In this document: in pieces, positions 7,499 to 52,810 of the stretch
Layout: the number at the start of each line of letters is the position of its first letter
Position numbering within the stretch: position 1 is the first letter of the stretch
DNA from: Alligator mississippiensis
Taxonomy: Eukaryota > Chordata > Crocodylia > Alligatoridae
NCBI RefSeq assembly: GCF_030867095.1
Contig: NC_081825.1
Span: 48,164,501-48,228,500, forward strand
Direction of reading: 5' to 3'
Length of the DNA: 64,000 nucleotides
The notes under the pieces: generated by a model
Seen by the model: the letters and a program-made list of their open reading frames with translations, nothing else
What the model was told of the DNA's origin: nothing
Databases searched by the model: none
Made by a program: the position numbers and the translations under genes

Positions 7499-8916
7499 GC
7501 CACAAACTTCAGCCTCACTGCCCTTATACTGGACCCAACAGCTGCCTACGCAGCTTCCCCTTTGGGTTGTGAAAAAAAAATATAGGTCCCTCTTTTCATT
7601 GAAAGGGCTAGCCTGTATTAGCACCTGGCCAAAGGTCACTCCGTTCACAGAAAACCAGTAAGGAGACAAAACAGCAAAAGAATTAGGATAGAAGAACAAG
7701 AAGATAGGATGGAAGAACAACAAGCAATAGAAGGTAGAAGAACTATACAAGCAAAACTCAGTATGTTTGAAGACAGAAAAACAAAATAAGCATAGCTTCT
7801 TACTCTCTCATCTTGGTTACACCCTAGGCTTCTGGAGAGTTCTGGCAGTGTTTTTAGAGATCAACCTTCCTGCTGATTCTACCAGCCATGGCTTAGGGCC
7901 TGGGACACTTCTACACCTTGGGTAAAACCTAAAAAACCATGATTCTGTCCTAGCTAGATTGTAATAAGCCTCCAAAGCTAGCACTCCTTGCTCCAACTCT
8001 TCAGCATTACTCTAATTGCTTGCAAATAACCAGAATCCTCCAATTTTTTTTTTGTTTCCCTAAGGTAAGGTAATCTCAAAATCCTCTGGCTGGCAGGTAC
8101 ACCTTTTCTATAGAGAACTTGAGTTTCCCATTACACACAAACAATGCCTTAGGTCTGTGCTCAATACCTTACTTGATAATCTTCTAGTTTCATCATAAAA
8201 TTACAACAGTAGATTTATATAAAATACTGTAATACATACAGATATGAAAATGACCAAACCAAATCCAGCTTCAGACTAGCTACAAATATGAGACTAAACA
8301 CCACAGAGTAAGTCTGATTTGGGAGAATAACTATGCATGCCACATGCTGAATCCTAGAGGTAACTCGGTTTTGGGGTGAATTTGTGACAGTGCTGCTATG
8401 TTCAGGCATAGGGCACAAAATCATATAATTCCTCAAATAAATACCAACATCTTTATTTTGTGACACTGGCCTCATTCATCTGGTCAGTTAACTGTGAGCA
8501 CCCTGCTAGCGGGAAGAAGAAGATGAGTGCACCACTTTCAACAGGACATACCTTGTGTCTCTGTTGCAATCTTCCAAAGGACCACAACCTTGATGTGGTA
8601 GAGGGCTTTGTGTGCTACCAAGCACCTTGAGTGATGCTGTCTACAGTCTTTTACTCCTGGTAGGGCAACTCATGGCAATAAGCTCATGAGTGAGATTTCC
8701 AGACTAATAAAGTTCCAAAACTAAAAATAAAAGTCCTCTGGAACTAGAAACCCTAGTCGCATGCTTACAAAGAGGTGACTGTGTATCCTTGTTTTGTACT
8801 TGGAACTGAGACAGGTGTGCAATTGGTAAATTGCTATCCTGACTGAGCAGACCCATTTAGGATCCACTCTGCGCGCCCCATATGGGGAAGGGGCTAGAAA
8901 AGGTGCCCTAAACAGT

Positions 8917-9590
8917 AGGGGTGTGTGAAACAGGTCGTATTCAATTTGAATTCAGATTCAACCTGAATCAGAGACAGTGATTCGATTAGTTGATTCAGAT
9001 CACTGTCCCGATTCGATTCGGCTGAATCCGAATCTAAAGATTCAATGCTCACTTGGAGAATCAGCAATTTGGCCATAGACACAACTTTAAATATTTTTTC
9101 TACATACCTCAAGGTATCAGGCGCATCTCGTGACTGCTGCAATGATGGGGTGGATAGAGCATGCTTGGCAGCGAACCCAGAAGTGGACATTCCAGTCTAC
9201 TTTCATTCCGGTCCACCACTGAGTATGCAGGGAATGCCCCATGCCCCCCCTGGCTTGGTGACTGGCGGCGGCGGGGTGTCCCCCCAGATCCAAGAGGCAC
9301 CAGTCGCCAAGCCAGGGGGAATCCCCCACATGTTCCCTGCAAGTACTTCTGGTCCACTTCCGGGTCCACTGCTGAGCATGCTGGGGACCTCCCCCCCACC
9401 CCATGCTCCCATGGGATGCACCATCTGCCCCAGCATCTCAGCATTCACAAGCCACCTGGTACGTTGAGGTATGTAGCAAATACATTTAAAGCTGTGTCTA
9501 TGTCCAAATCATGAAATCTTTCCCAATCTCTCCAAATCAATTCAGAGGGTTCTGATTTGATTTGGAGAGATTCGATTCAGACTGCTGTCC
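8917..9590. mobile_element. non-autonomous hAT-type DNA element, copy 2
   Basis: The left end AGGGGTGTGTGAAACAGGTC is close to the termini of the elements at 1558 and 37003. The following block (GTATTCAATTTGAATTCAGA) is shared with copy 1, as are CTTCTGGTCCACTTC at about 9347 and the closing TCTCCAAATCAATTCAGAGG near 9530. A minus-strand-like match (CCAGAAGTGGAC) near 9177 makes the interior partly palindromic. The right terminus is not recognisable, so this copy seems truncated or overwritten near 9590. Confidence 0.65.
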
Positions 9591-9865
9591 CTGTGCACTG
9601 GGATTGAGCCCTGGGGCCTGACACCCCTCCTCCTGGCCATGCACACTGAAATTGGAACCTGGGATCTGGCTCTGTGTGCTGGGATTGGTGCACTACCTAG
9701 CATTCAGAGACTAAGGCTCCCCATGGGTCCAGAAGTTTGGCAGTAGGGGAACAGTGCCACCACAACCCACTGCCAAATTTCTGGACCCATGGGAAGCCCA
9801 ACAGGTTGGATGACAAGGCTCCAAGGGCCAGATCTGGCCCACTGGCCATGGATTGAGCACCCCTG
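9591..9865. mobile_element. hAT/Charlie-like MITE piece
   Basis: The right end reads GGGCCAGATCTGGCCCACTG then GCCATGGATTGAGCACCCCTG at about 9828-9865, a typical hAT MITE terminus. The left part has two or three diverged copies of a phrase like GCACTGGGATTGAGCCCTGG (about 9596, 9648 and 9678). No left terminus or 8-bp duplication was found. It abuts the previous element, so one may have inserted into the other. Confidence 0.45.
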
Positions 9866-25339: not shown

Positions 25340-26438
25340 TATCTTTGGTGGAAGATGTTACTGAAACACAGAAGGCTAAAATATATGCATCTACAAAAAG
25401 CAGGCAATATAGGCATAGGCAATTCAAGCTATGCTATATGACCAATGTATTTCTACTTGGACATAGAGAGACTAAAGATCTTTCATAAGAATGAAGGTGC
25501 AGTGCATTTCCAGAGTTTGTGTTGTTTTTCATTTCCCTGAGAATGCTATTCAAAAGTTATCAACTGCCATTGATTTTTGTGTCATGTTAGTACTAGAAGG
25601 GACTGTCAACTTGTTCTAGAGCAAGTAAAAAATGTATCTTAATTTTTATGCTAAAAAAAAATTAAAAGTTCTTCAGAATGAGCAGTGACATAAATTATTG
25701 CTTTGGAAACACTTCATTTTCTTTCAAAAACTTTGAGTTTTTAAAATATCAATTAAATATTTGAGATTTTTCATTTGTAAACACTAGGTTTTCAGTAAAC
25801 TGAGAATATGGCCTTTTGGATGTTATTCTTTTTGACAAAACAGCAATAAATAAAGTGTTGGGATTTTGGTTATTATTATTATTTTATTTAAGAAATATAG
25901 GTTTGTTTTAAACTGTAGAGAAAGAAGACAAATGCCAAAATTTGATGATTTTTTTTTTCTAACTTTGAACGAAGACTTTTGGCTTAAGTGGCGAATACTT
26001 CTTGTTGCAAATGATTATACTTACCATGCTAAATTTAAATGGCTTATTGAAAATACTGATCCAGATAGAATTTATTTATTTGACAAAAAAAAAAGAAAAA
26101 AAAGGAGTGGGATTTAGAATAGGAAAGCAAGAATCAGCTGTAGCTATTGCTATTTGCATTTGTCACAATTCCTACTGAAGGGCACAGAACCCAGCAGCAT
26201 CTGGAAGTATTAAATTATATTTTAGCTTCAGTTTTGGGTGACCAATAGCTAAAGTTAACTGCTCAAAGAAAACAGCAGCCAAGAGAAAAAAGTAGTTTTG
26301 CTCCTACATTCCAGGCTTTACAGTAACTCCAGTGAGTGTGTTACACAGAAGTAAAAAGTGCTAATAATTCTGTTGTTCTAAAATTCCACCAGCTGTAAAA
26401 TCTTTCATGTTTTTACGCATGCTCTTTTACCTAGCTTA

Positions 26439-28114
26439 TAGGCCTGTGCCAGTAGGCAGCTATTTGATTCAGCTTCGGATGCGACCGCTTCAGATGCCAG
26501 CGATCTGATCCAGAGCTCCAGACCGCGTTCCCGCTTCGATCCAGCCGAAGCAGCTCCGAAGCTGCCTCAGAAATCCAGCCATAGGGTATAATGGGGAAAT
26601 CAATGAAATATCTATAACTTTGTTGTTTTTTGTCAGATTTGGATGAAACGTACAGGGGTGGTAGCCTCTGCTGAGAGCATGAAGCCTGCCAAGCTTCAAG
26701 AGGATTGGTGCAGGGGTTTGGGGGAACTGCACCCCAAATTCTTGAAAGCAAAACTCATGTCACATGCATGTGTTACACCACATTGGGGTGAAAACTGCAG
26801 GGGTGGTAGCCCCTGGTCAGGCCATGAAGCCTGCCAAGTTTCAAGAAGATTGGTGCAGGGGTTTGCGGAGAACTGCACCTCAAGCTGTTGACAGGCAAAA
26901 CTTGTGACTGTGTGTGTTAAGGTGCAGCAGGCTGAAAACTGCAGGGGTGGTGGCCCCTGCTGAGGCCACAGAGCCTGCTAAGTTTCAAGGAGGTAAGTGC
27001 AGGGGCTTGGGGGGAACTGCACCTCAAGATGCGGACAAGCAAAACTTGTGACATGGGTGACACTGTGTTTGTTAAAGCACAGCAGGGTGAAAGCTGCAGG
27101 GATAGTAGCCCCTGCTGCGGCCACAAAAACTGCCAGCTGTCAAGGAGATAGGTGCAGGGGTTCTGGGGCCCTGCACCTCTAGCTGCTGACAGGCAAAACT
27201 TGTGACATAGGTGCTTGTGCAACTGACTGTGTCTGTCTCGGGGCAGTTGATTCTGTATTGATTCTTTCCTCTCCTCAGTGTGGGGTTTTGTAGGTGTTAA
27301 TTGTTGTTAATTAACTGGTTACATTAGCTAGCAATTGTATATTGAGCTGGTCTCTGAGTGAATTATGATTGATTGGTAACTGGTAACATAGTAGCTTAGC
27401 AGCCAGGCCTGCAGTAGTTCCCTGCAAGACAGAGACAGTCAGTTGCACAAGCACCCATGTCACGAGTTTTGCCTGTCAGTAGCTAGGGGTGCAGGGCCCC
27501 AGAACCCAGAAGCCTTGCACCTATCTCCTTGACAGCTGGCAGGATTTGTGGCTGCATCAGGGGCTACCACCCCTGCAGCTTTCACCCTGCTGTGCCTTAA
27601 CACACACAGTGTCACCCATGTCACGAGTTTTGCCTGTCAGCAGCTTGAGGTACAGTTCCCCCCAATCCCCTGCACTGATCTTCTTGAAATGTGGCAGGCT
27701 TTGTGGCCTCACCAGGAGCTACCACCCCTGCAGTTTTCACCCCTATGTTGTAATGCATATATGTGACAAGTTTTGCTTTCAAGAATTTGGGGTGCAGTTT
27801 CCCCTAAACCCCTACACCGATATTCTTGAAACTTGATAGGCTTCATGCTCTCAGCAGAGGCTGCCACCCCTACAAATTTCATCCAAATCAGACAAAACAC
27901 AACGAAGTTATAGATATTTCATTGATTCCCCAGTATACCCTATGGCCGGATCTCTGAGGCGGCTCTGAAGCTTTTCCGAAGTGCTTCTGAAGCTCTGAAC
28001 TGCTTCATAAAGCCTAAAAAAGCCAGCGCTTCAATCCAGACATGCTGCTTCAGACGCCGAAGTGTCCAAAGCTTCTCCAGATCTGAAGCACAGTCTGAAG
28101 CCTTGCATAGTCTA
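26439..28114. mobile_element. foldback hAT-type element with inverted tandem arrays
   Basis: A perfect 8-bp duplication CTAGCTTA flanks it (26431-26438 and 28115-28122). Its ends TAGGCCTGTGC and GCATAGTCTA are weakly inverted. Two long arms (about 26439-27245 and 27420-28114) are inverted copies of one another: GTCAGATTTGGATGAAACG-type sequence at about 26632 is mirrored at about 27878, and GTGCTTGTGCAACTGACTGT at about 27210 by ACAGTCAGTTGCACAAGCAC at about 27435. Each arm is a tandem array of a unit of about 145-155 bases built on CTGCAGGGGTGGTAGCCCCT ... TGCAGGGGTTTGGGGG ... GGCAAAACTTGTGAC. The left arm has four units (starting near 26645, 26791, 26935 and 27090), the right arm about three. 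A unique spacer of about 175 bases lies between. No transposase is encoded. Confidence 0.8.
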
Positions 28115-28175
28115 CTAGCTTAAACCTTTCTTAGCTATGTATAAGAGTTATTTAAGAACCACTACCAATTTAGAA

Positions 28176-31002: not shown

Positions 31003-31975
31003 TAACTGATTTTTTTAGACAAGAGAAATGTGGTAGATTTAATATATCTGGATTTTATTAAAGGATTTGCTGCAGTATCACATGGAAAATTGTCAGGACA
31101 GAAAAGATGGGATCACAACAAGAACTGTAAAGCAAATGAAGGTCTGGGTAGTGATGAGAAGGCAAATATGAGGCTAGAGTATTGTTACTGGTGGAGTTCC
31201 TCCATGAGCTGCCCTGGGACCACATATTGGGTGCATCTACACATGCACTTTACTGTGGAGTTGACTAATTAACTCCTCAGTAAAGTGTCACTGTCTACTC
31301 TTACACCAGTATTAGCGAGCAGTAAATTAACTCCACTGTAAGATAGTACAGTCTGTGACACTATTATCTTAGAGAAGTTACTCACTCCACCTATAGATGG
31401 TGACAGGAGCTGACTGGGGCACAAGGGTGCTAAACTTCAGGGGGCCACCTGCTGCAAAACTCCTCACTTTAGTATACTCGTGCCCCAGCCAGCCCCTCCA
31501 CCACCTGATGCATCACCCAGGGCGCAGAGCTGACCCCCCAAGCATGCTGCTAGCTCAGGGCTGCTCCACCCCACCTCAAACTGCTGTGGTCCTAGGCGCA
31601 TATGCATCAGAGTTTATTTCTTCATCTAAATTGCTTGTGTAGATGCACCAATTTAGTATCTTATCCCATTTTCTAACTTTGAGAAAACCACCACAAGAGT
31701 TTCTCTTCTGTAAACTAAAGATTTATTTGGAAGTAGGAAAAAGACTTGGATGTGTTAGTGGATTACCCTTAACAACCAATGTGATGATAAGTATGATAAG
31801 CTATTTCGAGTAGAAACTGGAAGGCATATTTCTCTTGTACAAAGCACTGAAAAGATCTTACCCTGAGTATTTTGATCATTCAGGTTCATGGAAAAAAGGG
31901 TCAAACAGCTATACAGGAGGACTCCTAAAATGAAGAGGGATACGAGAGAATCTCTTATAAAAAGATACTAAGGCT
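31003..31975 (+). mobile_element. old CR1 LINE fragments split by a MITE
   Basis: Two plus-strand pieces flank the MITE at 31229-31649. The first (31003-31228) reads RNVVDLIYLDFIKGFAAVSH, a decayed version of the RT palm motif IYLDFSKAFDTVSH, then the GPILGP-like CTGGGACCACATATTGGGT. The second (about 31690-31975) reads EKDLDVLVDYP, equivalent to CR1 EKDLGVLVDSKL, followed by a decayed LYKALVRPHLEY-type segment. Missing sequence between the motifs indicates internal deletion. The copy is much older than the CR1 at 34143. Confidence 0.65.
31229..31649. mobile_element. MITE with GGGTGCATCTACACA ends
   Basis: The left end GGGTGCATCTACACATGCAC and the right end GCTTGTGTAGATGCACC are inverted. 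Inside, GCTGACTGGGGCACAAGGGT (about 31410) faces ACTCGTGCCCCAGCCAGC (about 31479), forming an internal hairpin. It lies inside the CR1 fragment. The target duplication is not clear. The element at 36712 has related ends. Confidence 0.6.
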
Positions 31976-34142: not shown

Positions 34143-35595
34143 TTACAAGCGTTTGTGGTGCCCGGGCCAGGTGCCAGATGATTGGAAGATAGCCAATGTG
34201 GTCCCCATCTTTAAAAAAGGGAGGAGGGAGAACCCAGGCAACTATAGGCCTGTCAGTCTTACCTCAATCCTAGGGAAATCTTTGAGAAGCTCATCAAGGA
34301 GCACATCTGTGATGGGCCAGCATCGGGGATGATGCTCAAGGGCAACCAGCACAGTTTCATTAGGGGCAGGTCATGTCAAACCAACCTGATTGCCTTTTAC
34401 GATCAGGTCACAAAAGCACTGGATGCAGGTGTCGCCGTGGATGTAACCTTTCTGGACTTCAGCAAGGCCTTTGACACTGTCAACTACCCCATCCTCATTA
34501 AAAAACTAGGCAACTGTAGCATCTATGCCTACACAGTCAGATGAATTGCAAATTGGCTGAAGGGTCATACTCAGAGGGTGGTGGTGGACGGGTCATATTT
34601 GACCTGGGGACAAGTGGGCAGCAGAGTCCCTCAGGGCTCAGTCCCTGGGCCTGCACTGTTCAATTTCTTTATCAGCGATTTGGATGACGGGGTGAAAAGC
34701 AACCTGTTCAAATTTGCTGATGATACCAAAATTTGGGGTGAGGTGGGCACGTTAGCAGGGAGGGAAAGACTGCAGAAAGACCTGGATAGGTTGCAGGGGT
34801 GGGCTAACAAAAACAGGATGCGTTTCAATACTGACAAGTGCAGCGTGCTGCACTTGGGCAGTAGTAACCAGCAGCACACTTATAAGATGGGAAACTCCTT
34901 TCTTGAGAGCACGGAGGCAGAAAGGGATCTTGGAGTCATCATTGACTCCAGGATGAACACAGGCCGACAACGCGAGGTCACGGTCGGCAGGACTAACCGG
35001 ACTTTATCGTGCATCCACAGGTGCGTCTCAAATAGGGCCAAGGAGGTGATCCTCCCCCTCTACGCGACAGGTCAGGCTGCAGCTGGAGTGCTGTGTCCAG
35101 TTCTGGGCACCCCACTTCAAGAGGGATGTGGACAACATTGAGAGAGTCCAGAGGAGGACCACCTGCATGATCCGGGGACAGCAGGGCAGACCCTACAATG
35201 AGAGGCTACAGGACCTGAACCTGTTCAGCCTTCACAAGAGAAGGCTGTGGGGGGGACCAGGTGACCTTCTATAAACTTACTAGGAGGGACCAGAAGGGTT
35301 TGGGGGAGACCTTGTTTCCCCTAGCGCCCCCCAGGATAACAAGAAATAACGGCCACAAGTTGTTGGAGAGTAGGTTTAGATTAGACATCCTTAAGAACTA
35401 CTTCACAGTCAGGGTGGCTAGGATCTGGAACCAACTTCCAAGGGAAGTGGTGCTGGCTCCTACCCTGGGGGTCTTTAGAAGTGGCTTGATGCCTACCTGG
35501 CTGGGGTCATTTGAGCCCAGTTTTCTTCCTGCCCAGGCAGGGGGTCGGACTTGAAGATCTATGAGGTCCCTTCCGACCTACTTCTATGATTCTAT
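34143..35595 (+). mobile_element. CR1 LINE, 5'-truncated, RT-containing
   Basis: The fragment starts in the ORF2 region GARCQMIGR-like / VVPIFKKGRRENPGNYRPVS, continues through MLKGNQHSFIRGRSCQTNLI, FLDFSKAFDTVNYPILIKKL, VPQGSVPGPALFNF and the catalytic box KFADDTKIWG at about 34707-34736, and ends in the CR1 C-terminus (LPREVVLAPTLGVFR) and the tail CTTCTATGATTCTATAA. A 6-base direct repeat AAGGCT flanks it (34137-34142 and 35596-35601) and may be its target duplication. The CR1 reverse transcriptase belongs to the non-LTR class. It contains in-frame stops and frameshifts (near 34543, 35139 and 35270), so it is a dead copy. It is antisense to ARAP2. Confidence 0.92.
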
Positions 35596-36711
35596 AAGGC
35601 TGATACAAATGAACCAAAGGGAAAAAGCAAGGTATCAAAACAAACAAAAAGTTTTGAAATACTGAAATAAGTGGTAACCTAGACTCCAGCCGAAGCTATT
35701 AAAATGCTTTACAGTTCAAAATGAAACCACAGATGAAGATCGCCCACTTGGTGAATGTCACAATAGTTTACCTTGTAGCTGACAAAGCTGATTAATATAC
35801 ATCCTTCTCAAGCCCTGTTCACTTCCGACTGTCACAGCTTGAGGGTAAAGAGGTTTTTGCATTGATATTCTCAGATTTCAACTGGCTGAACTAGAACTAC
35901 TGTCTCCTACAAAGAACTGTTATAAATCAGAGATGGTGGTGGGGGAGAATAAAATTACTAAAAGCTGTGAATAGTGCATTTTATGCAGTTAATGAACTTC
36001 CTTGCATGGGAACTAAGGATGACAAGAAATGGTGATCTTGAGAACACAGTGCCATAACTTTCTCAGAATGTGATCAAGAGAGAGGCACACTGGGAAAAAG
36101 TTAAAATCTTCGTTTATTTGCAAGTGGCATGGGGAGGTGGGGGGGAGTTATTTATACTGAGATACTGCTAGTTAAAAAATGGTGAAATATGAAAGCCACC
36201 AGAAAAAAAATTCTTTAAGGTACTAAATCATAATAAAGTATCACTACTACGAAACTCTCTTCGTGTACCTTCCAGTAATCCCTAGTGGAGTGTTGTCAAC
36301 CTTTTTATATTACAAAGCCTCATATGTATTGACCCTTTCTTGAGCTCACATTTCAGGGAAAACAGGGGACTGGAAAAACACAGTACTTCATTACACAGAA
36401 AATGATATACCAGAATGAGATGATATTCAATGAAATGTGTGCAGCTATTAGATCACATCTTCCATTACACACCTGACTCATTCCTTTAACCTAACCGCTA
36501 AATCTCCTGTTCCTATTTGGAACCCCACTTCCTTATCTCCAAAAATAACTTTGCTGTGTAATTTCACTGTTTTCCATTTGTTCTAGCCTTCAAATTCAGT
36601 CTCATCAGATTTTTCAAGAGCTACAAAAGGTCTTTATTTTGTCTCATTTTTGTTGGTAAAATAAAATCTCCAAAATGCCAGCTACCTCTCAACTAGGCTA
36701 TAATTATCACT

Positions 36712-36959
36712 GGGTGTCTCTACACAAGATGCTGACTGAGCAATAGCTTGATATTACTGCACAGTTGTGTCACAGGGCAAAAACCGTGCTGAGATGCTAC
36801 TATGTAGTATTGGGTTACTGAACAATAATGTCACTTAGAAGGCATTTGCCAGCACTACTGTGCAGTAACTCCAGTTACTGTGTATTTATTACTTGTTTAT
36901 AGAGTACTGAATAAATGCGCAGTAACCACTACACAGTAGCGTTTATTGTAGACACACCC
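36712..36959. mobile_element. MITE with 3-bp target duplication
   Basis: The ends GGGTGTCTCTACACAA and TTATTGTAGACACACCC are inverted. The three bases on each outer side are ACT (36709-36711 and 36960-36962), which suggests a PIF/Harbinger-type 3-bp duplication. The interior has CAGTAA/TTACTG motifs in both orientations. The ends resemble those of the MITE at 31229. Confidence 0.65.
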
Positions 36960-37002
36960 ACTAAGCATCAAAGCCTGACAGAATAGTATCCTGGACTGCG
37001 TA

Positions 37003-37884
37003 ATAGGGCTGTGTGAAATTTCTGGTTGTAGCAGGGGCTGCAGGGCCTCTTGGCAGAGCGCCCCCATGCAGCCCCCACTCCCTGACAGCCCCACACCTGG
37101 CCCCAGCCGTCTGGGAATCAAAAAACCAAAAACCAAAAAAAAAGCTCCACACTCACTAGTTTTGGCAACGGTGATCAGCACCTCTTGGCACTCATGCCAG
37201 AGACCCCCCCCCCCCCCATACAGCGTGGGGCAATGGGGGGCAGCGGTGATTGTCCCCCCCCCCCCTTTGGTACCAGGGCAGCTCAGCAGGGTGCTGCATA
37301 CTGTCTGGGAGCTAAGGCGGTTTCAGCAGTCAGCCAGAGCCCAGCAGCGCTAAGGCCCAGAGGCCCCAGCTCCCAAACAGCATGCAGCACCCTGCCAAGT
37401 CGTGCTGCACCTATACCATTGGACAGCTGCCACGTGAGTGCCAGGCAGGAGGGCCAATCCCCGCTGACCCCCACTGCCCTGCACTCTGTGTATGTGTTGG
37501 GGGGCGGCCTCTGCCACAAGCCCTCAGAGGCCCTGATCGCCACTGCCAGAGTCAGTGAGTGCAGGGATTTTATTTATTTATTTTTAAGTGTTGGGCAGGT
37601 GATGGGGCTGGGCATGGTGGGGCAGCCAACTGGGGCCTCTCCCAGGGCTCCTCCCACCCAGGGAGATGCAGGCACAGCTGGAGGAGCCACAGGAATATAT
37701 GCAGCCACTGGGCTGTGCCTGCCTCTCCCCAGCTGATCCAAATCTCCGAAACAGTATTGAAACTCTGAAACAGATTTGGCCAAATTGAAATGGAACAGTG
37801 ATCCGAAACACTGAAATGAATCACTGTCCTCTGAAATGGCTAAATCTGAAATCGAAATGAGACATAGCCATTTCACACAGCCCT
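37003..37884. mobile_element. non-autonomous hAT-type DNA element, copy 3
   Basis: The inverted ends AGGGCTGTGTGAAATTTC and GCCATTTCACACAGCCCT are the best preserved of this family in the window. The flanks ACTGCGTA (36995-37002) and ACTGCCTA (37885-37892) form an 8-bp duplication with one mismatch. The interior is GC-rich with C runs (about 37204-37217 and 37254-37265), quite unlike the interior of copies 1 and 2. Near the right end there are repeated GAAACAGATTTGGCCAAATT and TCGAAATGAGA motifs. The open frames inside are chance. Confidence 0.75.
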
Positions 37885-38209
37885 ACTGCCTAGGCTCAAG
37901 TGATCAATACTAGGCTATAAATGACAGATGGAGCACTTTCATTTATGATGAAATTATGCTGTACTTTAATATCCAAATAGTGGACTTCATAGTTGGATGA
38001 AAACAACATGCATAAACCATTTGTTTAGATGAAGTTAATTTTGCTTTGACAGACCAGACCCTACTATGATTTTTACACTGTAACAATGCTTCAGAGCTTA
38101 TCAGATGGTGCTTTCAGGCTAATCACTGAAACAATTAAACAATTATTAAAAAGGTTTGCCACATTAATACTGTTTTATCGAACACTATTTTAAAAATAAA
38201 AATACATAC

Positions 38210-38338
38210 CACTGTAGAGTTTTATTGTGTCTGCTGTTAGAAACTTCTTTATTACTAGATATGCTGTTCCAGGCTCAGGTAATGAACTCCAGTGAAGAAC
38301 TTGTTCTAACACATTCTCTGTGTAGTGCAGTGGGCGCT
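38210..38338 (-). CDS. ARAP2: ARAP2 exon 3 (end of RA domain)
   Basis: The 129-base exon encodes (E)RPLHYTENVLEQVLHWSS then LPEPGTAYLVIKKFLTADT and IKLYS plus the first base of the next Glu codon. The acceptor CATCTTTCAG precedes 38338 and the donor GTATGT follows 38210. The peptide is the C-terminal half of the Ras-association domain of ARAP2, which is thought to have the fold of Ras/Rap-binding modules. RPLHYTENVLEQVL..W and AYLVIKKF are the conserved parts. Both splice phases match neighbours (exon 2 supplies G, exon 4 AG). Confidence 0.92.
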
Positions 38339-38596
38339 CTGAAAGATGTCAAAACAACAGATGTTGAAACAACAAAAACAAGACTGGAGGTCCTAGCAGG
38401 TTACAGGAGCCTACACATGAATGTGGATGCCTTCAAAATAAGACACTTAACTCTTCAGTAGTTCAAAGTGAATGCAACAATTAAAGCACTTGACTATTGA
38501 TCCTCTACAGTAACACCTTAGCTTATATGCTCTAAAATTCACTACATGCGATACTAGGTTGAGTAAGCAGCAGTCAAGTGTTTAACAAGAATGAGA

Positions 38597-38597
<1 letters not shown>

Positions 38598-38627
<30 letters not shown>
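38598..38627 (+). repeat. (AAAT)n microsatellite
   Basis: About seven units of the tetranucleotide in a row. Confidence 0.9.
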
Positions 38628-39539
38628 TAAACACCATTACTAGACCATTCTGGAAAAAACATATATAAACCTGTAAAACTGTACTGCATGCTACCTAACC
38701 CATAAAATTAGGAATTAACTAAGGCTGTATTTAGATACCATTAAAGATTTATACTGCAATAGCTGCTCTGGTCTCATTCTAGTTGAGCCTCATTGTGCTA
38801 GAAAATGTAATTTTGCAAATTGAAATTACAGCTTTTTGTAACAAAGATGTCAATATACTTATATTAAATGTCACTTACGACAAAGCATCCTTTGTTTGCC
38901 ACTACTACCATGATGCGTAATTTAACTTGCCCTCAACAAAAAAACACAAGTCTTTCATCCAGACGCATAGCCATTCTTTTACATTTATATAAAAACATAA
39001 TTATGGAACATTGTTTTATCAAGCCAGGTAAATATTCATAAAGGTTGAGGAAAATACCAAAAGGATAGGGTAAATCTCTATTACAAAAAGGACAGCTAGA
39101 TAATAGAAGATATATCCAGTATTGGTACATTTGAATCATCCCTAGCTGTTGAAACAGGATGCTGGGCCATCAAATAATCTTACAATAGAACAATCTAATA
39201 TTGTTTGTTTCATTCTATATACCACCTGGAGCCAATATGGCCATGGTTAATAAAGCCAAACTGTGCCATGCCCACATTTTTTTGAATCGCATGCTAAATG
39301 CAATTGAGCCAGATCTGACACGTATGTCCCATATTTATGAATGCTCATATGCTCATAGGTGTATACATCCTGATTCTTAGCCAGGCTGCTGTGGTACATA
39401 GTTAGCTTCATTAAGTATTCAAACATGATTCACAAGATAAACCCAGAGATTTCAAATAGTAATCCATTATGTTGAAAACATCTTGACTGATTGTGGTTTG
39501 AGTTGTCTGCAACATAATGTCCCTATTATTTTTCTGTAG

Positions 39540-39640
39540 TAAAAAAACAGTGAAAACTAAGAGCTGGCATTTTCTGAGGGAGCCTCAAGTCTAAAGAGGG
39601 GTGCCTCAAGTTTTAAAAAAAGCAGAGAACCACTGGTATA
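39540..39640. repeat. hAT MITE end
   Basis: GTGCCTCAAGTTTTAAAAAA then AGCAGAGAACCACTG is an inverted form of the hAT/Charlie end CAGTGGTTCTC. Only one terminus is recognisable. Confidence 0.4.
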
Positions 39641-40152
39641 CAGCATACTCCATATATATCCATACAGGATAAGCGCATCATTTGTTTACATGCATTACAT
39701 GATACCCGTCTCCCCCTTCTTGTTTTTGGTCTGCTACATGCTTAGTAACAAAAGCTAACTACCTGCATATTTGTTAAGTGCACAGAACTAGGACTTGGAA
39801 GACTCTTTGGCCAAGTTGTCTATTTTGGAATGTACTTGTACTTCATTTCACTACATCATTGGTGAAACAGACTAGCAGCCATCAATTACATGTCTTCTGA
39901 AGTAGGTTCAGTCAATTTCAAGTATGCCATTACAGGCATAAGGCATTCTGAGAAACAAGGTAATGATCCTTAATGAGGTGCAAAAAGCTCAGAACACGCT
40001 AAGTTATTGACTTCTGTTTGCATTCAGTTTGGGTGAACACATGGCCTTTTCTCAGTCCTGAAGATATGCACTTAAGACTACACCATACACACAACTCCCA
40101 GGAAAAAATTAACAAAATTTCATACAAAAAATAAGGTTAGTCAAAATAAATA

Positions 40153-42862
40153 TAGTGATTCATAGATTGTAGAGTTGAAAGGGACCACAAAGGATCGTTG
40201 TGTCTGACCCTCCCGCCCTTGGCAGAAAAGAGGACTGAGGTCAGATGACCCCAGCCAGGTGACTATAAAGCCACCTCTTGAAGACCTCCAAGTTAGGTGA
40301 TAGCACCACCTCTCTTGGAAGCCCATTCCAGATTCTGGCCAGCCTTACTGTAAAAAAATTATTCCTAATGTCTAACCTGAATCTACTCTCCACTAGTTTG
40401 CACCCATTATTCCTAGTTATTCCTAGGGGTGCTCTGGTAAATAGGGCATCTCCAATTCCCTGTTGACCTCCCTTGATATACTTATAGGTGGCTACAAGGT
40501 CTCCCCTCAGCCATCTCTTGTGAAGGTTGAAGAGATCCAGATCCCTCAACCTCCCCTCGTAGGGTCTTTCACAGAAGCCACTAATCATGTGAGTGGCCCT
40601 CCTCTGAACCCTTTCCAGATTCTCTGTGTCCCTCTTGAAGCGCGGCCCTCAAAACTGGACACATTACTCCAACTGTGGCCTGACCAATGCAGCATGGGGG
40701 GGAGCATCACCTCCCTCAATCTGTTGGTCGTGCATCTGCTAATGCATGACAAGGTGCAATTGGGCTTCTTGATGGCATCATTACACTACTGGCTCATGTT
40801 CATCTTGGAGTCAACTATGACTCTAAGATCCCTCTCAGCTGCTGAGCTGCTCATCCCCCAGCCTATAGGTGTGCTGGGGATTCCTCCTCCCAAGGTGGAG
40901 TATCTTGCATTTATCTTTGTTGAATTGCATCCTATTTCATTCTGCCCATTGATTCAACCTGTCCAGATTGGTCTGTATCTGCTCCCTGTCCTCCGGTGTG
41001 TTAACTTTGCCCCATAACTTGGTACCATCTGCAAACTTGGAGAGGGCACTCTCCACACCCTCATCCAAATCGCCGATGAAGATAATAAATAACACTGGTC
41101 CAAGGACCAAACCCTGTGGGACCCCACCACCCACTTCCTTCCAGGCCAAAAACAACCCGTCCACCACCATTCTCTGGGTGTGGTCCCTAAGCTAATTGGC
41201 GACCCACCTGACTGTGTAAGTGTCCACCCCACAGCCTGCTAATTTCCGTATGAGAATAGGATGCGAAACTGTGTCAATGGCCTCCTTCAAGTCCATGTAG
41301 ATGACACCAGCCTCAGCTCCTGTGTCAAGGCAGTGTGGGATCTGGTCATAAAAGGCTATAAGGTTTGTCAGGCAGGATCCACCTGCGATGAACCCATGCT
41401 GGTTTCCTTTCAGCATGGTTTCCCCTGCTGGGCCTTCACAAATGTGCTCTTTCATGATTTTTTTCCAGTATTTTTTCCAAAGGATAGAGGTAAGACTGAC
41501 TGGCCTAAAGTTACCTGGCTCATCCCTTCTCCCCTTCTTAAAAATGGGCAGCACACTGGCCCTTTTCCAATCCTCAGGGACCTGGCTGGAGCACCATAGT
41601 TTCATAGTTGGTAAGGTCGGAAGGGACCTAAGCAGATCATCAAGTCCGACTCCCTGCCATGGCAGGAAAAAGTACTCGGGTCAAATGACCCCAGCAAGGT
41701 GTTAGTCTAACCTCTTCTTAAAGACCCCCAAGGTAGGAGCCAGCACCACTTTGCTTGGAAGTTGGTTCCAGATCCTAGCCGCCCTGACAGTGGAGTAGTG
41801 CCTGCTGATGTCTAGTCTAAATCTACCCTCTGCCAGCTTGTGACTGTTATTTTTTGTCACTCCTGGCAGTGCTCGGGGGAACAGGGACTCTCCCAATGCC
41901 TGTTGGTCCCCTCTGACTAGTTTGTAACAGGTCACTAGATCCCAACTCAGCCTTTTCTTGTGGAGGCTGAACAGGTTCAGGTCCCTTAGCCTCCCCTCGT
42001 AGGGCCTGCCCTGCTGCCCGTTGACCCTCCTCTGGACCCTCTCAATGCTGTCCACATCCCTCCTGAAGTGCGGTGCCCAGGACTGGATGCAGTACTCCAA
42101 CTGCAGCCTGACCAGTGCTGCATAAAGGGGGAGGATCACCTCCTTGGACCTGCTTGAGATGCATCTGTGGATGCATGACAAGGTGTGGCTGGCCTTACTG
42201 ATCACATCCCCACACTGTCGGCCCATGTTCATTTTGGCATCAATAATGATTCCAAGATCCTTTTCTGCCTCTGCACTGATGAGAAGGGAGCTCCCCAGCC
42301 TGTAGGTATGCTGCTGGTTCTTCCTTCCCAGGTGCAGCACCTTGCACTTGTCAGTGTTGAAACCCATCCTGTTCTCATCCGCCTACCCCTGTAACCTGTC
42401 TAGGTCCAATTGCAGCCTATTCCTCCCTTCTAGCGTGCTCACATCCCCCCACACCTTGGTGTCATCAGCAAATTTGAATAGGATGCTTTTTACCCCCTCG
42501 TCCAAGTTACTGATGAAGATGTTGAAGATGAGTGCTTGAACAGCCATGCCAGAGGCTCAGCTATGACACTGTCTTAGATTGTTGTAGACAGCCTAAGCTC
42601 CAGCCCTGCCTTGGCCTGCTTAACTGATTCCCTGCAATAGTGCGCCAGGGAGGTGTATTCCTCCTTGGTGGCTGCTCCCTGCTTCCCCTACCTGTAAATC
42701 TCTTTCTTTGCCCCCAGTCTTTTCTGGAGTTCCCTGTTCAGCCAAGGAGGCTTTCTTATCCCCTTGCCACCTTTCCTGCGTAAGGGGATAGACTCGTTTT
42801 GTGCCCCAAGGATCACTCCCCTGAGAAACCTCCAACCCTCCTGGACCCCCATTGTGGTGACA
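40153..42862 (-). mobile_element. CR1 LINE A, interrupted by CR1 B
   Basis: Reading on the minus strand, element A enters at about 42862 with an ORF2 linker segment (KERDLQ-type frame; another frame reads PPWLNRELQKRLGAKKEI and YCRESVKQAKAGLELRLST), then IAEPLAWLFKHS. It is broken by CR1 B (41596-42535), and resumes with CSSQVPEDWKRASVLPIFKK, GRRDEPGNFRPVSL, MLKGNQHGFIAGGSCLTNLI, IYMDLKEAIDTVSHPILIRK and the catalytic box KFADGTKLWG (second Asp lost). It ends near 40153 with a tail whose plus strand reads AGTGATTCATAGATTG. About 350 bases expected between the linker and IAEPL are missing. It is dead and in the gene's own orientation. Confidence 0.88.
41596..42535 (-). mobile_element. CR1 LINE B nested inside CR1 A
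   Basis: This copy runs from within the RT domain (IFNIFISNLDEGVKSILFKF then ADDTKVWGDVSTL, intact ADD box) through MGFNTDKCKVLHLGRKNQQH, IIDAKMNMGRQCGDVI, KEVILPLYAALVRLQLEYCI and RFRLDISRHYSTVRAARIWN. It ends in a tail whose plus strand starts ATAGTTTCATAGTTGG near 41596. One frame is open for 221 codons at 41702-42367, interrupted upstream by a stop. That openness suggests B is younger than A. B splits A between LFKHS and CSSQ, which are adjacent in the CR1 protein. Confidence 0.9.
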
Positions 42863-43439
42863 ACCATCTATTTTCTACAATAAGAAAAATATTACATAAT
42901 ATTATTAGTTGGCTTTTATCACTAAGCTATTATATAAAAGTTTGAATCGGTGATTGACCAATTATGCAAATTACTCATTTGCAAGTGTCATTTCAAATAA
43001 AAGAAATCTAATAAAAGAACTCCTTCATTTTTTTATTACAATAAAATCTTACAAGATTTTTCTTCTTACTAGACTTCATACATTATTGAACCTTTATCCT
43101 ACGCTGTTTCCCAGAGGCTGTCCCTATGACTGGAGCACAAAACATGACTGATACTGTGAAAATGCAGGTGCTGCATTGGTCCCACACCCAAATGCCTCTC
43201 CCTTCTAGTAGAAAGTGCGTTTGATCAAACGGATAGATGGCCACTCAAGGTATGGTCAGAGGATGGACAGATTATTTTAATTAGAATTCCCCCTTCTCCA
43301 TCACATTCCTAGTTTTCTTTTGGTTTCCATATGGTGCTTAGATGAGAGCTAGACATTTATTTACCAAAGCAGCATCTACAAACACTGAACTTTGGGCACT
43401 TTTGAAAAAAATTCTCAATCAAGCAGAGTGGGCACTCAG

Positions 43440-45822
43440 TTCCTTGTTTAAGCAACTGCTGAGAGCAAGGGTTTCTGGATCATAGATTTGGAGGAACACT
43501 TGGCTAGGATGGATTGGTCATGTAGCTTCTTAACCTGTACTGAAGAGCTCTATCTGGAAGTGCAAGAGCCAACCAGAGGCAATGGTCTCCTAGACTTGGT
43601 CTTGGTCAAAGGAGCAACTTGAATATTGAGGGAAGCCTGGGCAAGAGCAGCCTTGAGATCATCATGCTCACTGTCTGCCACAAGGAAGACAAATCAATTA
43701 CCAGGATTCAGGTCCTGGACTTCAAAAATGCAAATTTCAACAGGCTCAGGGTAATAGTAGGGGAGGCAATGTGGGATCAGGGACTGAAGGTGAATGGAAT
43801 GTATGAAGGGTGGTTGTTTCTCAAGGACACGATACTCCTAGCACAAAAGACGACCATTCCCATGCAGAGGAAAGGCAGCAAAGGGGCTGGTAAGCCCTTT
43901 TGGCTTGATAGGGATATGATGGTCCTCTTGAAAAAGAAAAAGAGGCATACACACAATGGAAGCTTGGGACAGTCCTCAAGGAGAACTATAGAACAGTGGT
44001 ACGCACATGTTGGGAGGAGATTAGGAAAGCTAAGGTGGCTACTGAATTTAAGTAATCAACAGGAATCAAGGACAATAAGAAGTCCTTCTTTAGGTATGTA
44101 GGGAGCAGAAGGAAAACAAATGGAGGCATGGGGACCCTGCTTACCACCTCAGGACAGCTGGTAACCAGCACTCAGGAAAAAAATGAATTCCTGAATACCC
44201 AGTTTGCTTTGGTATTTCACTGGACCAAAGGGAAAAACATGCTAGACAAGGCTCACGGGGTAATGGTGGGAATGACCACCTTCCTACTGTTGACGTTGAG
44301 CTGGTGCGTGTGCAACTAGAAAAGTGAGACATTTATAAAGTCAGCAGGACCAGATGAACTCCACCCAAGAGTACTGAAGGAGCCGGCCGACGTTATTGCG
44401 GGACCCCTGGCCAAACTTTTCCAAAACTCGTGGAGCTCAGGGGAGATCCCTAAAGATTAGAAGAGGGCCAAGGTTGTGCCCAACTTCAAGAAGGGGAAGA
44501 GAAAGGATCCGGGCAACTATAGACCAATCAGCCAAACTTCTATCCCAGGGAAAATCCTAGGAAAAAAAAAAAAAACTCATCAAGGAGTTTATGTGCAATA
44601 TGTTTGCAGAAGGTAGGATTCTGAATGACAGCCAGCATAGCTTCACTGCGGGCAGGTCTTGTTTTACCAGTCTTATCTCCCTCTACAACCAGGTATTTTG
44701 CCACCTGAACAAGGGAAAGGAGGTCAACATTATATACATAGACTTCCAAAAGGCCTTTGATCTAGTATTCCATGATATCCTTGCAGGAAAGTTGGAAGAT
44801 TGTGTGCTTAACTACTCAATGGTTAAGTGGTTAGGAAACTAGCTGTGAGGTACAACCCAGAGAGTTCTTATGAATGGATCTGTGTAGTCCTGGTGAGAAG
44901 TGGTGTCCCTCTGGGGTCTGTACTTATCCAGTGCTTTTAAACATCTTTATCCATGATTTGGGTGTGGAAGTGAAAAGCTCACTGGCAAAGTTCATGGACA
45001 ACAAGTTATGGGGGAGTGTGGTCACGCCTGAAGATTGGCTGCAGATTCAGGTGGACCTGGACAGGTTGGCAAGTTGGGCGGATTGGAACCAGATGAAGTT
45101 CAACATCAAGAAATGTAAAGTGCTCCATTGGCAAACAATCCCCAACACGCCTACAGACTAGGTGGTGCCAATTTGACTATCACCATGACCAAAAGGGACC
45201 TAGGGCTAATAATCGATCATCGCATGAACATGAACCATCAGTGAGATGCTGCAGCCAGAAGAGCAAACAATTCTCCAGCATGCATCAACTGATGCATCTC
45301 ATGTAAAACCAAGGGGGTGATTCTTCCACCGTACTCAGCACTGGTGTGACAACAGCTGGAATACTGTGTCCAGTTCTGGGCACCACACTTAAACAAAGAC
45401 ATAGAAAAACTTGAGAGAGTCCAAAGAGCCACCCATATGATCTGAGAGTTGCGAGGCAAGCAATATGATAAAAGGCTGATGGACTTGGGTCTCTTCAGCC
45501 TAAAAAAGAGAAGCCTAAGAGAGGACTTGGTAGCAGCTTACCAATACATCAGAGCACCCTTGGGGAGTAATGGCTACAAACTCCTGGAAGCCCACTTCAG
45601 GCTCAACTCTAAGAAAAACTTCACAGTCAGGGTGTCTAGACTGTGGAATAAATTCCCCTCAGTGGTGGTGCAATCACCTACTCTGGAAATCTTCAAGAGG
45701 GGACTGGACGGCCACCTTGCTGGGGTCACCTGACATCAGTTGTCTTTCCTGCCTAGTGCAGGGGGGCTGGGCCCAATGATCTTGCAAGGTCCCTTCCAGC
45801 CCCTAACAATCTATGAATCTTA
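43440..45822 (+). mobile_element. CR1 LINE, longest copy (endonuclease end to 3' tail)
   Basis: The copy starts in the ORF2 endonuclease region: EPTRGNGLLDLVLVKGAT-like frame at about 43570-43620, then LGKSSLEIIMLTVC and IQVLDFKNANFNRLRVIVGE. It continues with the linker (KPFWLDRDMM), RTIS-like SAGPDELHPRVLKEP, the RT palm (YIDFQKAFDLVFHDIL), a broken catalytic region KFMDNKLWGSVVT, and the C-terminus (VSRLWNKFPSVVVQSPTLEI, FKRGLDGHLAGVT). It ends CAATCTATGAATCTT at about 45822. Multiple stops and frame changes, an A13 run at 44559-44573 and the loss of FADD show it is dead. It is antisense to ARAP2. Confidence 0.9.
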
Positions 45823-51849: not shown

Positions 51850-52810
51850 AAAGACTGGATCCCAGCAAGATAAGCATCCAAATTTCTCTTGAAGGTGTTC
51901 AATGTAGGTGCTTGAACCATCTCCTATGGCAGGCTATTCCAGACCTTGGGGGCTTGAACAGTAAAGAAATTCTTTCTTATGTCCAGCCTGAAACGGTCTT
52001 GCAGTAGTTTATAACCGTTCGACCTTGTCATCCCTTGGGGTGCTCTGGTGAACAAACATTACCCCAGATACTGGTGGTCAGCCCTGATAAACATATAGGT
52101 GGCCATCACATCACCCCTGAGCCTGCACTTTTCCAGGCTAAAGAGCCCCATAGCTCTCAGCCTGTCATCATAAGGTCTGTTTTCCTGACCTTTGATCATG
52201 TGCATGGCTCTTCTCTGGACTCTCTCAAGCTTCTCCACATCCTTTTTGAACTGTGGGGCCCCAAACTGGACGCAGTACTTACTCCAGCTGCAGCCTTACC
52301 AAGGCCGAGTACAAGGGGAGAATGACATCCTGGGATTTGCTTGAGAAGCATCTATGGATGGAAGCCAGCATTTTGGTCGCTTTACTAGCCGCAGCATCGC
52401 ATTGAAGGCTCATGTTCATCTTGCGGTCGATGATGATCCCCAAGTCTCTTTCTTCCGTAGTGCTAGCCAGCGTAGCACTGCCAAGCCTATAAGGATGCTG
52501 CAGGTTTTTCCTTCCTAGGTGGAGAACCTTGCATTTTTCAGTGTTAAGCAGCATCAGGTTCTCATCCACCCATTTGCTGAGCCTGTCCAGGTCAGCCTGG
52601 ATCGCCCTCCTGTCTTCAGGTGTGGATTCTTTGCCCCAAAGTTTGGTGTCATTGGTGAACTTGGCCAGTTTGCTTCCGACTCCAACGTCCACATCATTAA
52701 CGAAGATGTTGAACAATATGGGTCCAAGGACAGAGCCTTGGGAGAACCCACTGTCACAAGGCATCATGACAATTGACTTCTGTCAATTACCACCCTCTGA
52801 GTCCAACCAT
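51850..52810 (-). mobile_element. CR1 LINE lacking 5' part and 3' tail
   Basis: On the minus strand it reads SQGSVLGPILFNIFVNDVDV, KFTNDTKLWGKESTPEDRRA (ADD box altered to TND), MLLNTEKCKVLHLGRKNLQH, TTEERDLGIIIDRKMNM, KSQDVILPLYSALVRLQLEY, and then the C-terminal QTSYKLLQDRFRLDIRKNFF-type frame to about 51870. It stops around 51850 without CR1's short 3' UTR and octamers, so the 3' end was removed by deletion or by the neighbouring repeat. One 162-codon frame survives; the copy is inactive. Confidence 0.88.

Follow-up and report, generated by a model that had tools for sequence, protein, structure and literature searches.

What is the 1,676-bp insertion that occupies an intron of the alligator gene ARAP2, by what mechanism did it arrive, and from what material were its long inverted arms built? 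To answer this, we analyzed the element, the window around it (the whole stretch of 64 kb, whose coordinates are used here unless a locus is named) and its relatives in a genome of 2.35 Gb in 195 contigs. The reading that we favor, with a probability of about 0.8, is that of a non-autonomous hAT transposon in foldback form, the arms of which are an inverted duplication of the 3′ tail of a BED-hAT transposon that took the place of the transposase gene.

The insertion is flanked by perfect 8-bp duplications (Table 1), as the initial annotation of the locus had stated, and neither a third occurrence of CTAGCTTA nor its reverse complement was found within the 64-kb window. Four main inverted pairs join the arms (238 nt at 89% identity, 133 nt at 87%, 132 nt at 88%, and 81 nt at 94%). 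The description of the arms as inverted copies of each other holds for the good palindrome, from ~26552 to 27972, but not for the outermost 113 bp on the left and 142 bp on the right, which are mutual inverted copies only across a short imperfect terminal repeat (TAGGCCTGTGC on the left versus TAGACTATGCA on the right). Nowhere in the 64 kb are GAAGC/GCTTC motifs as densely clustered as at the two ends of the element (9 and 7 per 300 bp). Four tandem units in the left arm and three in the right, annotated as about 150 bases long, were recovered at ~145–155 bp (TRF on the arms reported 3.8 copies at period 144 and 1.8 copies at period 155), and the spacer, put at about 175 bases in the annotation, measures 188 bp. 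Most units between 26653 and 27874 are also predicted, in single-unit folds, to form small hairpins of their own, such as CAGGGG...CCCCTG. Long inverted arms with internal tandem repeats, one hallmark of foldback elements, are present in this element and its family, while arms extending inverted to the very ends, the other hallmark, are not. As the outer sequences differ beyond the short imperfect repeat, we describe the element as foldback-like rather than as a classical foldback.

Table 1 Features of the focal insertion in window coordinates.
Feature	Positions	Strand
Left target-site duplication, CTAGCTTA	26431..26438	.
E5, left end: TAGGCCTGTGC terminal repeat and GCTTC/GAAGC subterminal repeats; resembles a hAT transposon 3′ end	26439..26551	+
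Module A, left arm	26552..26652	+
Unit L1	26653..26796	+
Unit L2	26797..26940	+
Unit L3	26941..27095	+
Unit L4, innermost left	27096..27238	+
Spacer, 188 bp; reversed with respect to the ends in 6 of the 57 copies that could be scored	27239..27426	+
Unit R3, innermost right, pairs with L4	27427..27577	-
Unit R2, pairs with L2/L3	27578..27732	-
Unit R1, pairs with L1	27733..27874	-
Module A′, right arm	27875..27972	-
E3, right end: imperfect terminal repeat and GAAGC/GCTTC subterminal repeats	27973..28114	-
Right target-site duplication, CTAGCTTA	28115..28122	.

Pairing between the arms follows unit position: L1 matches R1 (86% identity, tree support 0.991) and L4 matches R3 (91%, support 0.996), with R2 at 87% to L2 and 88% to L3. 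Hence the left and right arms share one array, which speaks against the annotation's proposal that the arms originated by tandem growth. R2 does not switch cleanly from L2-like to L3-like sequence at one breakpoint; the informative sites are mixed, with a 3′ part that is mainly L3-like, so we claim no simple deletion in this unit.

The insertion belongs to a dispersed family of at least 40 copies, itself included, found by scoring the best 40 of the 9,360 first-look candidates of a whole-element search. All share one common plan, which reads, where complete, end, A, units, spacer, inverted units, A′, end. With the spacer alone as query, 2,164 first-look candidates were obtained, and each of the best 40, which were scored, matched at 91% or more. 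Target duplications were evaluated in 35 of the 40 copies (five without an end were left out), and had no mismatch in 18, one in 6, two in 5, three in 1, four in 4, and five in 1. At most one mismatch was thus seen in 24 of 35 copies versus 0.17% of flanks mispaired between loci, with copy boundaries placed where duplication and terminal repeat together scored best, a choice that biases somewhat toward matches. The 11 copies with two or more mismatches count against our reading. The consensus of the hAT target preference is nTnnnnAn, and the family's sites fit it: of the 24 best duplications, 17 have T at position 2, 16 have T at position 6, and 20 have A at position 7. The focal CTAGCTTA follows it at position 2 (T) but not at position 7, where it also has T.

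The annotation had named, as grounds for refuting it, orthologous loci whose flanks are not joined by a single duplication; at paralogous empty sites, a sibling copy (L010) that sits within another repeat passed this test. Its joined flanks match 38 places (all those scored, minus its own two flanks) uninterrupted across the junction at 79–83%, and a copy of the repeat in the window (31225-31596) spans this junction at 71%. The flanks of the focal copy have no full-length match elsewhere in the genome; beyond the flanks themselves, the search returned two side matches of 41–42 bp only. The sibling duplications and these paralogous empty sites, together with the BED-hAT 3′-tail homology described below, agree with the class first assigned, a foldback element with a hAT-type 8-bp duplication. 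Like hAT MITEs, the family is non-coding, with short terminal repeats, 8-bp duplications, and probably many copies; unlike them, it is ~1.7 kb in length, which is long for a MITE, and consists mostly of an internal palindrome of tandem units. The mechanism of the focal element is ordinary, hAT cut-and-paste, and its body is unusual.

Three other hAT-like elements were noted in the window. The first (1559-2384) has terminal repeats TAGAAGTGTGC and (reverse) TAGGGCTGTGCGAA, a duplication ATATGTAC/ATGTGTAT that agrees at 6 of 8 positions, GAATC subterminal repeats at one end, and an internal palindrome of unrelated sequence (1709-2223 against itself, 65%). The second (8916-9572) is a related copy, matching the first in pieces at 78–84%; ten GAATC/GATTC motifs lie within its first 150 bp, and no far end was located. 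The third (37004-37885) carries TAGGGCTGTGTGAAAT at both ends, a duplication CTGCGTAA/CTGCCTAG (6 of 8), and GAAAC repeats at one end. The window also holds a short palindrome of 85 bp (9715-9798, 80% to its own complement), and repeats at 34156-45819 and 52117-52751, 64–78% mutually alike, whose frames resemble CR1-type reverse transcriptase.

To identify the source of the arms, we turned to transposase genes. The one relative read end to end, L092 (the same locus as L049), is a hAT transposon (L092, 1297-5318) with terminal repeats at both ends, perfect TTAGACAA duplications on each side, and an open 847-aa frame with BED and hAT dimerisation domains, the protein of which matches Hermes (E 4e-15). 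Forty-six distinct loci matching its transposase C-terminus were compiled, 30 from a Pfam search and 16 as downstream regions. In ten of them, a unit and/or an A module lies 47–1392 bp downstream of the C-terminus, always (10/10) inverted relative to the gene; the other orientation never occurs downstream. Two further loci (L064 and L065) have family parts upstream of the C-terminus, those of L064 being a palindrome of its own. The other 34 loci showed no family part in the flank examined, which counts against our reading. The tail of L107, turned over, is collinear with focal bases 34–464 (81% over 442 bp, E 6e-119). This match covers one end only. L107 is itself decayed, and may be a family member that lost part of its length and happens to lie behind a decayed transposase. 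The 5′ end of L107 was not found in the 2.6 kb upstream, and no clear source for the spacer was seen in L107 or L109. Together, the inverted units downstream of transposases and the L107 match make the arms look like an inverted duplication of a hAT 3′ tail. One or two units are already present in the 3′ noncoding tail of transposase-bearing relatives, a second result at odds with tandem growth as the origin of the arms.

A simpler route would be internal deletion, in which a parent hAT that already carried an inverted array at each end simply lost its gene to give the foldback element. Non-autonomous elements arise most often in this way, and the array units do belong to hAT transposons. However, in L092 the module is found solely 3′ of the gene, with none in the 5′ noncoding stretch, and the frame of L091 begins 33 bp after the terminal repeat. 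As no true GAAGC-ended parent was found among the loci read, simple deletion keeps some probability, though we regard it as unlikely.

The ends of these transposons also bear on the superfamily. The P/Galileo type, Sola1, and Novosib superfamilies make 8-bp duplications as well, and a foldback element from one of these would have an 8-bp duplication of its own. Galileo likewise has long, internally repetitive arms and duplications of 7–8 bp in the passages that describe it (PMC4168063). Yet the homologous transposases carry the BED and hAT dimerisation domains and match Hermes, and the family shares its TAGGSCTGTG terminal repeats with the hAT loci L091, L092, L052, L095, L107, and L108, which makes an origin in another superfamily barely credible. 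Within the hAT reading, 5′ ends start with TAGGGC in both cases available (L091 and L092), and 3′ ends start with TAGGCC in four of six (L052, L095, L107, and L108); the other two, L092 and L055 of the GAAAC group, start with TAGGGC. This terminal dialect would identify E5 as a 3′ end and E3 as a 5′ end. Among the loci read, none combined a transposase with an E5-like end and an E3-like end.

The consensus ends of the family are rich in GCTTCGG, where related elements have GAATC or GAAAC, one base different. BED-hAT proteins, including that of the crocodile hAT-19_Crp (Repbase), have DNA-binding motifs mostly with CGG that match their own subterminal regions, as far as the published description goes (PMC8097297). 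The family probably used a protein of this kind in trans. The one-base subterminal differences between GAAGC, GAATC, and GAAAC would offer a test of the co-evolution of transposases and ends.

Taken together, we propose that a BED-finger hAT transposase acting in trans would bind and cut the ends, at the short terminal repeat and the GCTTCGG/GAAGC repeats, and that the element moved by cut-and-paste, as the 8-bp duplications of its family show. Where such a transposon has its transposase gene, the element would carry that transposon's noncoding 3′ tail (module A and tandem units), duplicated in inverted orientation as its arms. Its left half is collinear with a hAT 3′ tail, and the right half would be an inverted copy of this tail joined to a second end, probably a 5′ end. 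Template switching during gap repair, as in the model for Galileo, would be the most likely route of duplication. From an ancestor with nearly identical outer arms, as the consensus indicates, the copies then came to vary in unit number, and recombination between the arms would have left the spacer in either orientation.

The ancestral state can be read from the copies themselves. Between the E5 and E3 sides, the outer-arm consensuses disagree at 5 of 245 columns (from 33 copies that have both), and the inner-unit consensuses at 7 of 147 (35 copies), whereas the mean identity between arms within one copy is 85.0% (outer) and 86.6% (inner). Since the side consensuses almost agree while the arms of single copies diverge, the ancestral arms were nearly identical and the copies have decayed since; non-CpG divergence from the consensus is 5.6–8.6% across the five parts measured. 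Strong gene conversion between arms after insertion was considered and rejected, as two arms are scarcely more similar when they come from one copy than when they come from different copies, and any conversion was slight at most. Outer units have an identity of 0.850 within a copy versus 0.841 between copies compared left to right (permutation p 0.001), left-left comparisons also giving 0.850, and inner units have 0.866 versus 0.862 (p 0.11).

Two features go beyond the initial annotation: an arm can hold anywhere from 2 to 5 units, and some copies have a turned spacer. Among the 27 full copies with an unturned spacer, left/right unit numbers were 3/3 in ten, 4/3 in nine, 4/4 in four, 2/3 in two, and 4/5 and 4/2 in one each; the five full turned copies had 4/4 (two), 3/3 (two), and 4/3 (one). 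These counts, which omit eight truncated copies, are not genome frequencies, because copies entered the sample in order of their similarity to the focal 4/3 copy. Six of the 40 copies have a spacer turned relative to the ends; of these, L011, L026, and L032 are complete with perfect duplications, L034 has two mismatches in its duplication, and L024 and L040 have four. A second sample, ranked by the spacer and read on one side, contained none among 17 scorable of 20 copies, and the figure in Table 1 pools both samples.

A turned spacer is what recombination between the inverted arms would produce, and such recombination is the plain explanation. Descent of all turned copies from a single turned source, with no repeated recombination of the arms, is a possibility that we consider doubtful. 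It would be in line with the clustering of L026 and L032 (support 0.911 for the spacer and 0.965 for ends plus spacer) and with the lack of turned copies in the spacer-ranked sample; against it, turned copies are no more like each other than like unturned ones (0.889 versus 0.890 for the spacer, 0.778 versus 0.786 for E5), and they are scattered over several places in poorly supported trees. We lean, at somewhat better than even odds, toward a vertebrate hAT family that built a near-perfect palindrome from the noncoding 3′ tail of its parent and amplified it, the arms then recombining repeatedly in the germ line. If this is true, palindrome instability has left its fossil record in the dispersed copies, as turned spacers and changed unit numbers.

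The host gene and the transcript were considered last. With pieces of human ARAP2 as probe, minus-strand exons were found at 56964-56884, 55767-55648, 38339-38220, 23527-23402, 12906-12793, and 6484-6128 (E < 1e-8), with weaker matches at 18397-18362 and 17816-17757; neither the N-terminal nor the middle pieces yielded a credible exon in the window. ARAP2 is supported as the host named in the annotation, whereas intron 3 is not: the exons that bracket the element (38339-38220 and 23527-23402) place it close to the 3′ end of the gene. The folding check suggested in the annotation gave a predicted energy of -1129.5 kcal/mol for the plus strand versus -576.7 (sd 8.3) in 30 dinucleotide shuffles, which is beyond chance, with 492 of 687 left-arm bases predicted to pair with the right arm. 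The minus strand, which is ARAP2 sense, has a predicted fold of -1111.6, the shuffles being of the plus strand only. A transcript of the focal copy, which now decays in its intron, could by this prediction form a long hairpin. That the element is a selected source of dsRNA, for ARAP2 regulation or for silencing or editing, might be suggested by its intronic position and by the very stable predicted fold of both strands; but comparable folding would be expected of any long palindrome, the focal copy decays as its siblings do, and the tail module (75.7% over 181 columns, L092 versus L052) is no better conserved than the fourfold sites of the transposase (78%, L092 versus L091), so that no sequence constraint on the module was seen. 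We judge such a role very improbable.

A literature search returned no crocodilian foldback hAT among the matches listed, and no match for the 18-base unit core. The foldback elements that we compared, Galileo and Tetris, are from Drosophila, and the present family is from a vertebrate. In the passages that describe it, Galileo, of the P superfamily, has long inverted arms with internal tandem repeats, unequal in number between the arms of one copy as in our family, and internal sequence duplicated in inverted orientation (PMC3573991, PMC4168063). It differs in its superfamily, with a transposase described as THAP-type (PMC3688188) where ours is hAT, and in arms that are described as running to the very ends, where our element has dissimilar ends outside the palindrome. 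A turned spacer, present in our family, is not among the features given in those passages on Galileo (PMC3573991, PMC4168063). Tetris, of Drosophila virilis, is described as a non-autonomous foldback element with ~220 bp tandem repeats inside its inverted arms, the units of which also build kb-long satellite arrays (PMC4079207); the plan is the same, and units and host are unrelated. In the alligator, the arms have a traceable raw material, the 3′ tail of hAT transposons that can be identified, and arm length and spacer orientation are seen to change across dozens of copies. Scored genome-wide, the family could gauge the germ-line recombination rate of long palindromes. Its plan is as in Galileo and Tetris, and it is distinct by its vertebrate host, its hAT transposase, the traceable source of its arms, and its turned spacers.
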